Source: Ferrithrix thermotolerans DSM 19514
GTDB taxonomy: Bacteria; Actinomycetota; Acidimicrobiia; Acidimicrobiales; CAIXPF01
Assembly (NCBI GenBank): GCA_945906305.1
Contig: CAMDQT010000016.1
Location: 1-64,000, forward strand
DNA length: 64,000 bases
Direction of reading: 5' to 3'
Shown: positions 47,813-53,519 of the stretch, in pieces
How the letters are laid out: each line of letters starts with the position of its first letter
How positions within the stretch are numbered: the first letter of the stretch is position 1
Notes under the pieces: generated by a model
Told to the model about the DNA's origin: nothing
The model's input: only the letters and a program-made list of their open reading frames with translations
Database searches by the model: none
Made by a program: the position numbers and the translations under genes

Positions 47813-49480
47813 TCAACCCAAGAGCAACGCGTAGTCCAACGCGTCGGCGAGGGCTTGCCAGGACGCCTCGATGATGTTCTCCGACACGCCCATCGTCGTC
47901 CACTTGCGCGTACCGTTGGTCGTCTCGATAAGCACCCTGACCACCGCGGCGGTGCCACCTTCGGTATTGAGCACCCGCACCTTGTAGTCGCTCAGGCTGA
48001 GCCGAGCCAGCACCGGTAGGCGCTCACCGAGCGCAGCCCGCATGGCAGCATCGAGAGCGTTCACGGGGCCGTTTCCCTCGCCGGTGGCGATGAGCCGCTC
48101 AGCACCGACACGAAGCTTGATGGTGCATTCGGTCTCGATGCCGCGAGCATGGCCCAAAGGGTTTTCCACCAGCTCGCTGGTGACCCCCGGCCGGTGCTCC
48201 ACCGTAACCCGGAAACTCTCCAGCTCGAAGGACTCCGGCCGCCAGCCGGTAGCGCGTCGCATGAGCAGTTCGAGGGACGCGTCGGCGGTCTCGAAGTGAT
48301 AGCCCGCCGATTCGAGTTGCTTGAGCTGATCGAGAACCACGCCGAGTTGCTTGCCGTCGAGCTCGATGCCCCATTCGGAGGCCTTGAACTCCATCGTGGC
48401 GCGGCCGGACAGGTCCGAGACCAAGAAGCGAGTGCCATTGCCAACCTGCGCCGGGTCGATGTGCTCATAGGAATCGGGGCGGCGGGCGATGGCGGACGTG
48501 TGCAGGCCCGCCTTGTGGGCGAAAGCGGACTGGCCCACATAGGGAAGTTGGTTTTGATGCGGCAGGTTGACCAACTCGGCCACACGACGCGAGACATCCG
48601 TCAGCCGCTCGAGATGGCCCGCGGGCAAGGTCGCAATGCCCATCTTCAGCGTCAGGTTTGGGATCAACTGCACGAGGTCGCAGTTGCCGGTGCGTTCGCC
48701 GTAGCCATTCATCGTCACCTGCACCTGGGTCGCGCCGGCGATGACCGCAGCCAACGCGTTGGGCACCGCACAACCGGTGTCGTTCTGGGTGTGGATACCG
48801 ATCGGCAGGCTGCCGAAATGTCGCACCACCTCGCGCACGATCGGCTCCACCTCATGGGCCAGTGAGCCGCCGTTCGTGTCACACAACACCAGGCAATCCG
48901 CGCCGTTGGTGGCCGCGGCCTCGAGCACCCGCAGGGTGAACTCGGGGTTGCGCTTGTAGCCATCGAAGAAATGCTCACAGTCGAAGAACACCCGCAAGCC
49001 GTGGCCCTTGAGGAAGGCGACCGACTCGCCAACCATGGCCTCGCCCTCCTCGAGGGTGGTGCGCAGCGCTTCGAGCACGTGGTAGTCCCAGCCCTTGCCC
49101 ACGATGCAGGCCGTGGACACGCCAGCCTGCACCAAGGTGCGCAACGTCGGATCGTCGTCGCTGCGACCGAGGGGCTTGCGGGTCGAGCCGAAGGCCACCA
49201 GGGTGGCGTGGCGCAAGTTCAGTTCCGTTGCCGCCCGGCGGAAGAACTCCTCGTCCTTGGGGTTCGCTCCGGGATAGCCGCCTTCGATCCAATGCACCCC
49301 AAGTTCATCGAGCGCCTCGGCCACGGCGAGCTTGTCCTGCACGGTCAGCGAGATGCCTTCGAACTGTGCGCCGTCGCGCAACGTGGTGTCGAACACCTCA
49401 ACTGCCGCCGGCCACGAAGGGTTGTAACGGGGCGATCGGTCCACTGGCGCCATCGCCGACGAGTCGGGCGTCGCGCTCAC
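47813..49480 (-). CDS. cimA: (R)-citramalate synthase
   Basis: 555 residues of the DRE-TIM HMGL-like family. [20 protein letters not shown] opens the barrel, [25 protein letters not shown] and [15 protein letters not shown] complete the metal- and substrate-binding site, and a C-terminal regulatory domain follows from about residue 400. The wording [12 protein letters not shown] is that of citramalate synthase rather than 2-isopropylmalate synthase or homocitrate synthase. It condenses pyruvate and acetyl-CoA as the first step of the threonine-independent isoleucine route. The GTG at 49480 overlaps the leuB stop by 4 bp (GTGA); ATG 49453 is an alternative. Confidence 0.9.
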
Positions 49481-50475
49481 AGCCGACGCGCGATCTGCTC
49501 GCCGACGGAGGTGGTTGAGCCGGTTATCTCGCCGCTCATCGATGCCGCGCACGCCGCCCGGATACGATCCGCCGCCGCCGGTTCACCGAGGAAGTCCAAC
49601 ATCATTGCCCCCGACAGGATCGCCGCAGTGGGGTTGGCCTTGTTCTGTCCGGCGATGTCGGGCGCAGAGCCGTGGACCGGTTCGAACATCGAAGGCCCAG
49701 TCCGATCGGGGTTCAGGTTCCCCGAGGCGGCAAAGCCGATACCGCCGGTCACCGCGCCCGCCAGATCGGTCAGGATGTCTCCGAAGAGGTTGTCGGTGAC
49801 GATCACGTCATAACGCTGCGGGTCCTCGACAAGGTAGATGCAGGCCGCATCGACGTGGTTGTAGGCCGTGGCGACAGCGCGGTACTCGGCGTCATGGACC
49901 TCGTTGAAGGTGCGCTCCCACAGGTCACCGGAGAAGGTCAAAACGTTGGTCTTGTGCACCATGGTGAGATGGCCGCGACGAGCCGAGGCTTGAGCGAGGT
50001 CGAAGGCGTAGCGCACGCAACGCTGCACCCCCATCCTGGTGTTCACCGAACCCTGGGTGGCGATCTCGTGCGGCGTCCCCTTGCGCAGAAACCCGCCCTC
50101 ACCGGCGTAGGTGCCCTCGGTGTTCTCACGAATGACGATGAAGTCGATGCCTTTGGCGGTGTCGACGAAGGGCCGCTGGTTGATGAAGAGGTCTAGCTCA
50201 AATCGCATCTTGAGCAGCAGGCCACGCTCGATAAGGCCCGGGGGCACCCCCGGGGTGCCCACCGCGCCAAGGTAAATGGCATCGAGCCCGCGCCACTCCT
50301 CAAGCACGGAATCGGGCAGCACGGTGCCGTCGCGCAAGTAGCGCGCGCCACCGAGGTCGTAGTCGACCGTTTCCAGGCCGACCCCGGCCGCCTCGATGAC
50401 CTTGAGACCTACATCAATTACCTCGGGACCGATACCGTCCCCGCGGACCACGCCCACCCGGTACGTGCTGGCCAT
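49477..50475 (-). CDS. leuB: 3-isopropylmalate dehydrogenase (beta-decarboxylating)
   Basis: 332 residues. The N-terminal [15 protein letters not shown], the [17 protein letters not shown] segment, [34 protein letters not shown] and [19 protein letters not shown] are the substrate-, metal- and NAD-binding motifs of the isocitrate/isopropylmalate dehydrogenase family. LeuB acts in leucine synthesis and, with CimA, on methylmalate for isoleucine. The ATG at 50475 has AGGAGG upstream. It is coupled to cimA. A leader ORF and intrinsic terminator lie between 50571 and 50667 upstream, suggesting attenuation. Confidence 0.92.
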
Positions 50476-50566: not shown

Positions 50567-50599
50567 AAAGGAAAAACCGCCCACCAGGGTGGACGGTTT
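50567..50599 (-). terminator. Intrinsic terminator in the leuB leader
   Basis: On the minus strand AAACCGTCCAC pairs with GTGGGCGGTTT (about 11 bp, one G-T), followed by a run of T residues. It points into leuB, about 95 nt ahead of the start codon. That is the position of an attenuator rather than a gene end. Confidence 0.72.
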
Positions 50600-50601
50600 A
50601 C

Positions 50602-50626
50602 GCGCACGCCGGGGGGCGGCGTGCGC
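50602..50626 (-). promoter_or_regulatory. 10-bp leader hairpin preceding the attenuator
   Basis: GCGCACGCCG and CGGCGTGCGC form a perfect 10-bp stem with a five-C loop. It begins at the last base of the leader ORF stop codon and lies directly before the terminator, so translation of the leader could determine whether it folds. Confidence 0.65.
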
Positions 50627-50667
50627 TACGGAATGCTGATGTGGACGCGGGTTGCTGCGTGCATCAC
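50626..50667 (-). CDS. Leader peptide upstream of leuB-cimA
   Basis: GTG at 50667 (or ATG 50664) opens a 13-codon ORF reading VMHAATRVHISIP, ending TAG at 50628-50626. AGGAG lies 8 nt before the GTG, a good ribosome-binding site. The peptide has two isoleucine codons and one valine codon close to its end, and the stop overlaps the base of a strong hairpin that precedes an intrinsic terminator. The arrangement matches ribosome-mediated attenuation of an amino acid operon. Codon bias toward the regulated amino acid is modest, so the sensed amino acid is not certain. Confidence 0.6.
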   Translation of the reverse strand: MMHAATRVHISIP

Positions 50668-50829
50668 CCCGCAGTCTCCTCGCGTCTCCCCCACAACGTC
50701 AACCGCGGCCCGCACCGGCGCGGCCGACTTGGAACGACCAAGCCGCGGACGCCCACCTCGGCCCGCCGTGTCCGCCTGCCGTGGCCGCATGCCGTGGCCC
50801 CCGTGCGCCATCATGGCGATGAGGGTCGG

Positions 50830-51361: not shown

Positions 51362-52018
51362 TCAGTGCAGGCCGGCCGCAGCTTGTACCGCTCGCGCCGC
51401 AGCGATAACCGCCCCGGCATAGCGCTGGGCAGGCTGGCGTGAGGTGCGATCAATCGGACCGGACACACTCACCGCCGCCACGACCCGTTCGCCGTGCCAA
51501 ACCGGGGCACTGACTGACGCCACCCCCGGCTCGCGCTCTCCCACACTTTGGGCGTAGCCCCTGGCTAGCGCCACGGGCTCGGCTCGCAGTATGGCCCCTG
51601 CCGATCCACGACTGAGGTCCAGAACGGCGCCAAGGGACACGATGGTCCGCAACCCGTGAGGAGACTCGGCCACGGCCACACAGACCCGATGGTCACCTTC
51701 GCGGACATACAACTGGGCCGATTCGCCGGTGGCGTCGCGCAGATCTTCCAGCGGGCGCTGGGCCACCCGCGCCAGCGGCAAGGACTGCGAAGCGGCGTGG
51801 CCGAGCGCGATCAAGCGCAACCCGGGCAGGTAGTGCAGATCGTCGTCCCGGCGCACCAAGCCATGAGCCACGAGGGCGCCGGCCAGTCGATGTGCCGTCG
51901 GACGAGCCAAGCCGGTGACCTCGACCAGTTCATTGAGAGTACGCGCCCCGCCCTGCACCGCCGCGAGCAAGGCGATGGCCTTGTCCACGACGCCGACCCC
52001 GGATAGCCTGCTGTCCAT
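51362..52018 (-). CDS. IclR-family transcription regulator (LtbR/NdgR-like)
   Basis: 218 residues. An N-terminal winged helix-turn-helix ([43 protein letters not shown] in overlapping parts) is followed by the IclR effector domain. In actinobacteria the IclR-type regulators LtbR (Corynebacterium) and NdgR (Streptomyces) are encoded divergently from leuCD and control them. This gene has exactly that position, 85 bp from leuC. The 15-bp palindrome in between is the likely site. ATG 52018 fits the family; an upstream in-frame extension would run into leuC. Confidence 0.9.
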
Positions 52019-52032
52019 CAGTCGGAAGTCTG

Positions 52033-52047
52033 TCTCAATATTTGAGA
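52033..52047. promoter_or_regulatory. Operator-like palindrome TCTCAATATTTGAGA between iclR and leuC
   Basis: TCTCAA and TTGAGA are a perfect 6-bp inverted repeat with a 3-bp centre. It is the only AT-rich, symmetric element in the divergent intergenic region and overlaps possible -10 sequences for both genes. It is the best candidate binding site for the adjacent IclR protein. Confidence 0.6.
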
Positions 52048-52103
52048 TGGAGCAAGCATCGCCGGAGCAACCCCAAAGGACGCCCGGCAAGCGAGGTTTC
52101 ACC

Positions 52104-53519
52104 GTGACCCAGCCCCGCACCCTGGCACAGAAGATCTGGGAAGATCACGCCGTTCGATCCGGCAATCAGGGCGAGCCCGACCTGTTGTACATCGACCTGC
52201 ACCTCGTGCACGAGGTGACCAGCCCCCAGGCTTTCGACGGCCTTCGCATCGCGGGCCGCAAGATCCGCCGCCCGGAACTCACGGTGGCCACCGAGGACCA
52301 CAACGTCCCCACCACCCCGGTGGACGGCATTGAGGGTATCGAAGACCCCATCAGCCGCCGCCAGCTAGAGGTGATGCGCCAAAATGCCGCCGAGTTCGGC
52401 TTCACCCTGCATGCCATGGGCGACCCGGGCCAGGGCATCGTGCACGTGATCGGCCCCGAGCAGGGACTCACCCAGCCGGGGATGACGATCGTCTGCGGCG
52501 ATTCACACACCTCCACCCATGGTGCGTTCGGGGCGATCGCCTTCGGCATTGGTACCTCCGAGGTCGAACACGTGCTCGCCACCCAAACCCTGCCGCAGGT
52601 CCGGCCCAAGCAGATGGCCGTCAACGTTGAGGGCACCCTGGCCCCGGGTAGCACCGCCAAAGACATCACGCTCGCGGTCATCGGTTCTATCGGCACCGGC
52701 GGCGGGATGGGCTACATCATCGAATACCGCGGTTCGGCCATCAGGGCGCTGTCGATGGAAGGCCGCATGACCCTGTGCAACATGTCGATCGAGGGGGGCG
52801 CCAAAGCCGGCCTCGTTGCCCCCGACCAGAGCACCTTCGACTACCTCAAGGGCAGGGCCAAAGCGCCCGTCGGTGAGGCGTGGGACCGGGCCATGCAGTA
52901 CTGGCAGACGCTCTACACCGACCAAGATGCCGTCTTCGACAAGTCCGTCGACCTCGATGCTTCCCAGATCAGGCCCCAGGTCTCCTGGGGTACCAATCCC
53001 GCTCAGGTCGACGCCATCGATGCCCATGTTCCCCGACCAGAGGACTTCGCCGATCCCATCGAGCGCGACGCCTGCACCCGCGCCCTGGACTACATGGGGC
53101 TGACGGCGGGCATGGCCATCCGCGACATTGCGGTGGACTACGTGTTCATCGGCTCGTGCACCAACTCCCGTATCGAGGATCTGCGCCTCGCCGCTTCCGT
53201 CGTCCAAGGCCGCCAGATTGCCTCGGGGGTCACGGGGTGGGTCGTGCCCGGTTCCTTCGCGGTCAAGGTCCAGGCCGAAGCGGAAGGACTGCACCATGCC
53301 TTCACCGACGCCGGATTCGAGTGGCGCGAGCCAGGCTGCTCGGCCTGTCTGGCCATGAACCCCGACAAGATTCCGCCAGGCAAAAGGTCGGCATCAACGT
53401 CCAATCGGAACTTCGAAGGGCGCCAGGGACCCGGGGCCCGAACCCATCTCGTATCGCCTGCGGTAGCCGCCGCCACCGCCATCGCCGGGCGTTTCACCAC
53501 CCCCGCCGACCTGGGCTGA
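52104..53519 (+). CDS. leuC: 3-isopropylmalate dehydratase large subunit
   Basis: 471 residues of the aconitase family. [12 protein letters not shown] opens the protein. [26 protein letters not shown] and [14 protein letters not shown] hold the three cysteines of the 4Fe-4S cluster. [12 protein letters not shown] ends the active site. With LeuD it isomerises 2- to 3-isopropylmalate, and also citramalate to 3-methylmalate. GTG 52104 has GCGAGG upstream and gives the usual N-terminus. An in-frame ATG at 52047, inside the palindrome, would add 19 residues. It is followed after 11 nt by leuD. Confidence 0.95.

Follow-up and report, generated by a model that had tools for sequence, protein, structure and literature searches.

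A probable isoleucine-sensing leader-peptide attenuator ahead of leuB-cimA in Ferrithrix thermotolerans and related Acidimicrobiia

The leuB-cimA operon of Ferrithrix thermotolerans DSM 19514 is very probably controlled by a ribosome-mediated transcription attenuator that responds to isoleucine. The element lies between the divergent genes greA and leuB in a 64,000-nucleotide stretch of contig CAMDQT010000016.1 (hereafter the window), and its sequence holds the two features by which an attenuator is recognized: a short open reading frame (ORF) that carries codons for the pathway product close to its stop, and an intrinsic terminator before the first structural gene. Conservation, codon content and hairpins can be read directly from the genomes compared, and the regulation proposed here is what they would imply. 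The element would sense charged tRNA-Ile (in many relatives also tRNA-Val) and thereby control leuB-cimA, which belong to the citramalate route to isoleucine. With isoleucine in good supply, the ribosome would reach the stop codon and leave, and RNA polymerase would stop at the terminator (50599-50574); in a shortage, the ribosome would wait at Ile codons placed two to five codons ahead of the stop, and RNA polymerase would go on into leuB-cimA. How a waiting ribosome could bring about read-through is a separate question, for which the geometry of the leader suggests a tentative answer.

Architecture and conservation of the leader

Read along the minus strand, the element consists of TTGACG, 18 nt, GAGACT, 8 nt, an ATG, a 12-codon ORF, a hairpin, a terminator, leuB and cimA. 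The features, in window positions, are as follows.

50697..50702, minus strand: -35 element TTGACG (from sequence; scored in the scan for -35/-10 plus in-frame start)
50673..50678, minus strand: -10 element GAGACT, 18 nt after the -35 element; the commonest -10 hexamer among leuB-type leaders
50626..50664, minus strand: leader ORF from ATG to TAG, encoding MHAATRVHISIP before the stop, with ATC at codon -4 and ATT at codon -2; probably leaderless
50602..50626, minus strand: hairpin 1, 10 bp, GCGCACGCCG/CGGCGTGCGC (folding; covariation)
50572..50599, minus strand: intrinsic terminator, 11-bp stem 50599-50574, loop CCTG, T-run 50576-50572
49477..50475, minus strand: leuB, 3-isopropylmalate dehydrogenase, first structural gene (NF002898, 474 bits, cut-off 393)
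47813..49552, minus strand: cimA, citramalate synthase, second structural gene (TIGR00977, 640 bits, cut-off 450)

LeuB and CimA are assigned by NCBIfam models scoring above their cut-offs, and the cimA coordinates are those of the ORF as listed, within which the real start may lie. The leader ORF runs from the ATG at 50664 to a TAG stop at 50628-50626 and has 12 codons, or 13 if the GTG at 50667 is used, with Ile at -4 and -2 and Val at -6. The stem of hairpin 1 is perfect: 50626-50617 pairs with 50611-50602, and the stop codon contributes its third base to the first pair. Only 2 nt separate hairpin 1 from the terminator in the window, and leuB starts at 50475, 96 nt past the T-run. The terminator is placed ahead of the leuB-cimA operon and not at a gene end, greA being divergent. 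A preliminary description had pointed to a leader ORF, a perfect 10-bp stem touching its stop and a GC terminator before leuB, all of which are present on the minus strand.

The fold of the 128-nt element is more stable than those of 200 out of 200 dinucleotide shuffles (z -3.84). Terminator-like sites found by scan alone are unremarkable in number (4 found, 4.3 expected), so the case for the element rests on conservation rather than on the terminator scan. Congeners keep the ORF end, hairpin 1 and the terminator. In leuB loci of genome collections, 37 distinct leaders were found by the terminator sequence motif alone, and a covariance model built from them matches in 267 of 395 genomes of the class (E<=1), about 37 of these matches being weak, with E above 0.01. 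The genomes surveyed are mostly MAGs. Across the rest of the phylum the model matches in few genomes; weak out-of-class matches (e.g. L200-L204 and L208-L212) were set aside as resembling ordinary terminators or chance.

Base changes on both sides of a pair occur somewhere in 18 of the 21 stem pairs of a 112-row alignment. This alignment, which is fitted to the covariance model, holds 248 cells with such two-sided changes, compared with 58 in shuffles and at most 33 in slid versions; the unfitted 37-row alignment holds 22, against 6 expected. The third base of the stop codon covaries with its hairpin partner, UAG occurring with C or U in 163 leaders and UAA or UGA with U in 11. Conservation of the small ORF in relatives, seen both in leuB loci and in the class-wide covariance-model search, and compensatory changes that are strong in both stems thus support the earlier proposal of a leader-peptide attenuator of leuB-cimA.

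These data bear on two quite different readings of the element. Given that terminator-like hairpins are not rare by scan, it could be a constitutive premature terminator beside an incidental small ORF. That reading is very improbable, since codon identity is kept at fixed positions and switches to match the downstream gene, the stop base covaries with the stem, and an in-frame start follows the promoter. It is hardly credible that the element is a T-box, a riboswitch or a LEU-type element sensing the amino acid or its tRNA directly. Such elements are known for other branched-chain genes (PMC1262725), the LEU element being a pseudoknot of actinobacterial leuA whose Leu codons pair with the leuA Shine-Dalgarno box, but no Rfam family reaches threshold here, the only match being a chance one to a CRISPR repeat (E 0.65), and the conserved part is a short coding sequence followed by two plain hairpins.

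The leader is probably leaderless, its transcript starting on the start codon or only a few bases away from it. This reading follows from in-frame starts that stand close behind the -10 element and from the rarity of Shine-Dalgarno-like motifs: among 183 leaders, 107 have a -35/-10 pair with an in-frame start 4-10 nt past the -10 (out of frame in 8, about 1 in shuffled sequence), the distances from -10 to start cluster at 6-9 nt, and such a motif precedes the start in only 13 of the 107. The AGGAG at 50680-50676, earlier taken for a ribosome-binding site, shares bases with the -10 hexamer GAGACT (50678-50673) and is not kept in the congener L004 (GATGAAACT), where the ATG, the last codons and the hairpins nevertheless remain, and the Shine-Dalgarno reading was rejected on both grounds.

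Leader codons and the amino acid sensed

The preliminary description had left open which amino acid the leader would sense. The codon table largely settles this in favour of isoleucine; many leuB-type leaders add valine as a second signal, and leucine is nearly absent. All 37 of the motif-found leaders, whose codons were not used in collecting them, have Ile at codon -2. The isoleucine claim rests on these 37, because the larger set was gathered with a model that includes the codon positions, which makes its percentages, and not those of the 37, somewhat biased. This larger table covers 185 distinct leaders, drawn from ilvB loci and from the model matches, whose targets were identified in the DNA downstream; it takes in related sequences, so its counts are not independent.

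Within it, codon -2 is Ile in 114 of 117 leuB-cimA leaders and in 33 of 35 leaders that stand directly before cimA, whereas codon -1 is Ile in only one leader of each type (1/117 and 1/35); position -1 is non-regulatory in every leader group. Ile or Val occupies position -5 in 99, -4 in 98 and -3 in 81 of the 117 leuB-cimA leaders, from which Leu codons are almost absent. The cimA-only leaders carry Ile at -5 to -2 in 25, 33, 32 and 33 of 35, and ilvB leaders carry Leu, Val or Ile at these positions in 30, 32, 30 and 31 of 32. The Ile at -2 is spelled ATT 87 times and ATC 27 times, and the use of both argues that the amino acid is conserved rather than the RNA sequence. The window's own leader is comparatively weak: two of its codons within -5 to -2 are Ile. 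Since codon identity tracks the pathway product of the downstream gene, the match between the two is the strongest argument for codon sensing, and it indicates isoleucine for leuB-cimA.

Two further features of codon usage can be noted. The leuB-type leaders are nearly free of Leu although LeuB is a leucine enzyme, which suggests that the operon is regulated mainly for the citramalate route. Codon -1 of the 185 leaders is skewed towards Pro (in the leuB type 28, about 13 expected) and Arg (26, against 14) and away from Ala (4, against 17), possibly reflecting tuned peptide release.

The same plan of branched-chain codons, stop, hairpin and terminator occurs before ilvB in the same genome, in the class and in some other classes, several ilvB leaders outside the class sharing it, and the genome has a comparable leader before leuA.

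L215:3265-3334 (about 69.84-69.91 kb of the window's contig, beyond the window), minus strand: own ilvB leader, encoding MRSFGLGLIICVGSS before the stop; its UAG sits at the foot of an imperfect hairpin, and a terminator-like hairpin follows
L309, about 1160-1320: own leuA leader, encoding MSTQTRLLGLLLE before the stop, with Leu at -4, -3 and -2; its UAG falls within a 12-bp hairpin, and the GC hairpin that follows has a T-rich tail

One leuA leader outside the class (L199) ends in NLLLT before its stop. In a genome of another class, a leader with the codons V-L-L-I, a hairpin and a terminator (L195) is followed by a long ORF that resembles prephenate dehydratase and not ilvB, a mismatch for which an assembly break or a lost neighbour is a possible cause. 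A leucine gene also figures in a separate arrangement in the window (51362-53519), where an IclR-type regulator ORF (52120-51362, minus strand) is divergent from leuC (plus strand), the listed ORF starts overlapping; this ORF is a candidate regulator of leuCD.

From stalled ribosome to read-through

Could a stalled ribosome act by releasing an antiterminator? When the terminator arms were tested for pairing with the hairpin 1 arms, loop 1, the regulatory codons and the 5' ORF, nothing exceeded shuffled controls: mean z for these segments is about -0.2 to +1.0, compared with -3.6 to -4.9 for the real hairpins, and folding of the hairpin arms in context agrees with this null pairing result. A mutually exclusive antiterminator pairing, the mark of the trp/his/ilv subtype, was not found among the segment pairs tested. 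The element is accordingly not filed in that subtype; the wider ribosome-mediated kind needs no antiterminator (pyrBI lacks one). The alternative fold suggested in the preliminary description, GGGGTG (50670-50665) with CACCCT, does not hold up: congeners do not keep GGGGTG, part of it precedes the point where the transcript is predicted to start, and across the family the 5' ORF is no more complementary to the terminator arms than expected (z about 0). A pairing of CCGGCGTG with CACCCTGG is good in the window and in congeners but fails across the family, and was rejected.

The classical form of such a switch would have the stalled ribosome cover the 5' arm of hairpin 1 while the 3' arm pairs with the 5' arm of the terminator. 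The pairing can be drawn in leuB-type leaders, with a mean of about -5 to -6 kcal/mol (in the window, CCGGCGUG with CACCCUGG), but there shuffled arms do equally well (z 0.05 to 0.16), and in the cimA and ilvB types it is worse than shuffles (z 0.6 to 1.2). This three-way switch also predicts regulatory codons at -1, which are absent, and a ribosome at the stop codon would likewise free the 3' arm of hairpin 1. It is thus an improbable account of the leader.

The geometry of the leaders points elsewhere. In nearly every leader one of the stop-codon bases, usually the third, is where hairpin 1 begins. With hairpin 1 folded, a spacer of 0-8 nt (median 3) is left before the terminator; measured along the linear RNA, stop and terminator are 23-40 nt apart. 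The mRNA entry of the ribosome lies about +12 from the P site, and codon -2 in the A site puts the base of hairpin 1 at about +12 counted from the P site. A ribosome stalled at codon -2 would therefore leave hairpin 1 folded and have the terminator within about 3 nt of its edge, so close that folding of the terminator would be sterically blocked and read-through would follow. A ribosome at the stop would melt most of hairpin 1, restoring the 23-40 nt, and termination would proceed. In E. coli, a ribosome that stops a few bp ahead of the terminator tR2 represses it nearly completely, and the terminator recovers at distances above about 30 bp (PMC4824070). Together, the fixed geometry and this distance effect suggest that a folded hairpin 1 would let the stalled ribosome repress the terminator, and that a melted one would not.

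Hairpin 1 may in this way serve as a retractable spacer, a proposal that can be put forward only tentatively. The step would depend on steric blocking, since equilibrium folding, as modelled, favours the terminator throughout and has it formed at every ribosome position (mean P at least 0.87). The spacer model accounts for regulatory positions -5 to -2 and for the short folded spacer; it explains the absence of -1 only if hairpin 1 must fold fully, and does not by itself exclude that position. A rival view, in which RNA polymerase pauses at hairpin 1 and is thereby kept in step with the ribosome, with read-through brought about by some other, unrecognised interaction or by a protein, is unlikely. 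Pause hairpins do precede known attenuators such as trp, and the structure and position of hairpin 1 are strongly conserved, but a pause site explains neither the fixed placement with respect to codon -2 nor the short folded spacer, and would still lack a read-through step.

If hairpin 1 is a retractable spacer, the leaders would form an attenuator class without an antiterminator, in which a hairpin at the ribosome's entry edge acts as a ruler and the module is reused, by changing four codons, for isoleucine (cimA), branched-chain (ilvB) and leucine (leuA) genes. This wider reading is a possibility, though a somewhat doubtful one. A result from Streptomyces coelicolor counts against the attenuator reading as a whole: there, replacing candidate regulatory codons ahead of ilvBNC made no difference (cited in PMC1262725).

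Relation to known attenuators

The closest parallel in logic is the ilvB1NC leader of Mycobacterium tuberculosis, an upstream ORF (uORF) with LVVI codons whose replacement abolished induction; its authors hold that stalling leads to read-through and that a ribosome at the stop gives termination by keeping the anti-terminator from forming (PMC13236596). The branched-chain codon uORF and the stall/stop logic are those proposed here. The M. tuberculosis target is ilvB1 and its leader is 166 nt; the authors also draw mutually exclusive terminator and anti-terminator forms, for which no counterpart was found in the leuB-cimA family (PMC13236596). Actinobacterial ilvB leaders described by Seliverstov et al. 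(2005) in Corynebacterium, Mycobacterium and Streptomyces have short Ile/Val/Leu ORFs and terminators, with codons that overlap the terminator hairpin, and the abstract and leucine section of that paper hold no mention of leuB or cimA targets (PMC1262725). The window's target is leuB-cimA and that of the published leaders ilvB, and the likeness is one of plan. Narunsky et al. described ilvB uORF motifs (PMC10272879). Attenuation by branched-chain codons is supported by mutation for Corynebacterium ilvBNC/ilvB-II, for which overlapping antiantiterminator, antiterminator and terminator hairpins are proposed, a point of difference from the leader described here (PMC11857589, PMC10272879). The C. 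glutamicum ilvBNC transcript starts one nucleotide from the leader start codon (PMC11857589), and the window's leader is predicted to be leaderless.

Two other systems offer partial likenesses. The pyrBI-type attenuator, as described in PMC4824070, resembles the proposed mechanism in that a nearby ribosome represses the terminator directly, without an antiterminator hairpin. A literature search on pyrBI distances found nothing. While pyrBI responds to UTP through polymerase pausing, here the hairpin would set the distance and the codons would sense the amino acid. Mycobacterial leaderless poly-cysteine sORF attenuators, reportedly described by Canestrari and colleagues in 2020 (cited in PMC13236596), are likewise leaderless short ORFs whose codons sense the product; they differ in sensing cysteine and in controlling other operons.

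A literature search that covered few subscription papers found no paper on an attenuator of citramalate synthase or on an attenuator in Acidimicrobiia. Relative to known attenuators, compared by plan and target, what appears new is the cimA target, the sensing of isoleucine and the lack of a detectable antiterminator. That lack makes testable the idea that a ribosome can control a terminator by hairpin-set distance alone, and the near-invariant codon -2, together with no regulatory codon at -1, offers a sharp geometric test. If the proposal is true, most members of the class would control isoleucine synthesis by a leaderless leader peptide, and the codon rule (-5 to -2 before the stop) would predict what each operon senses.
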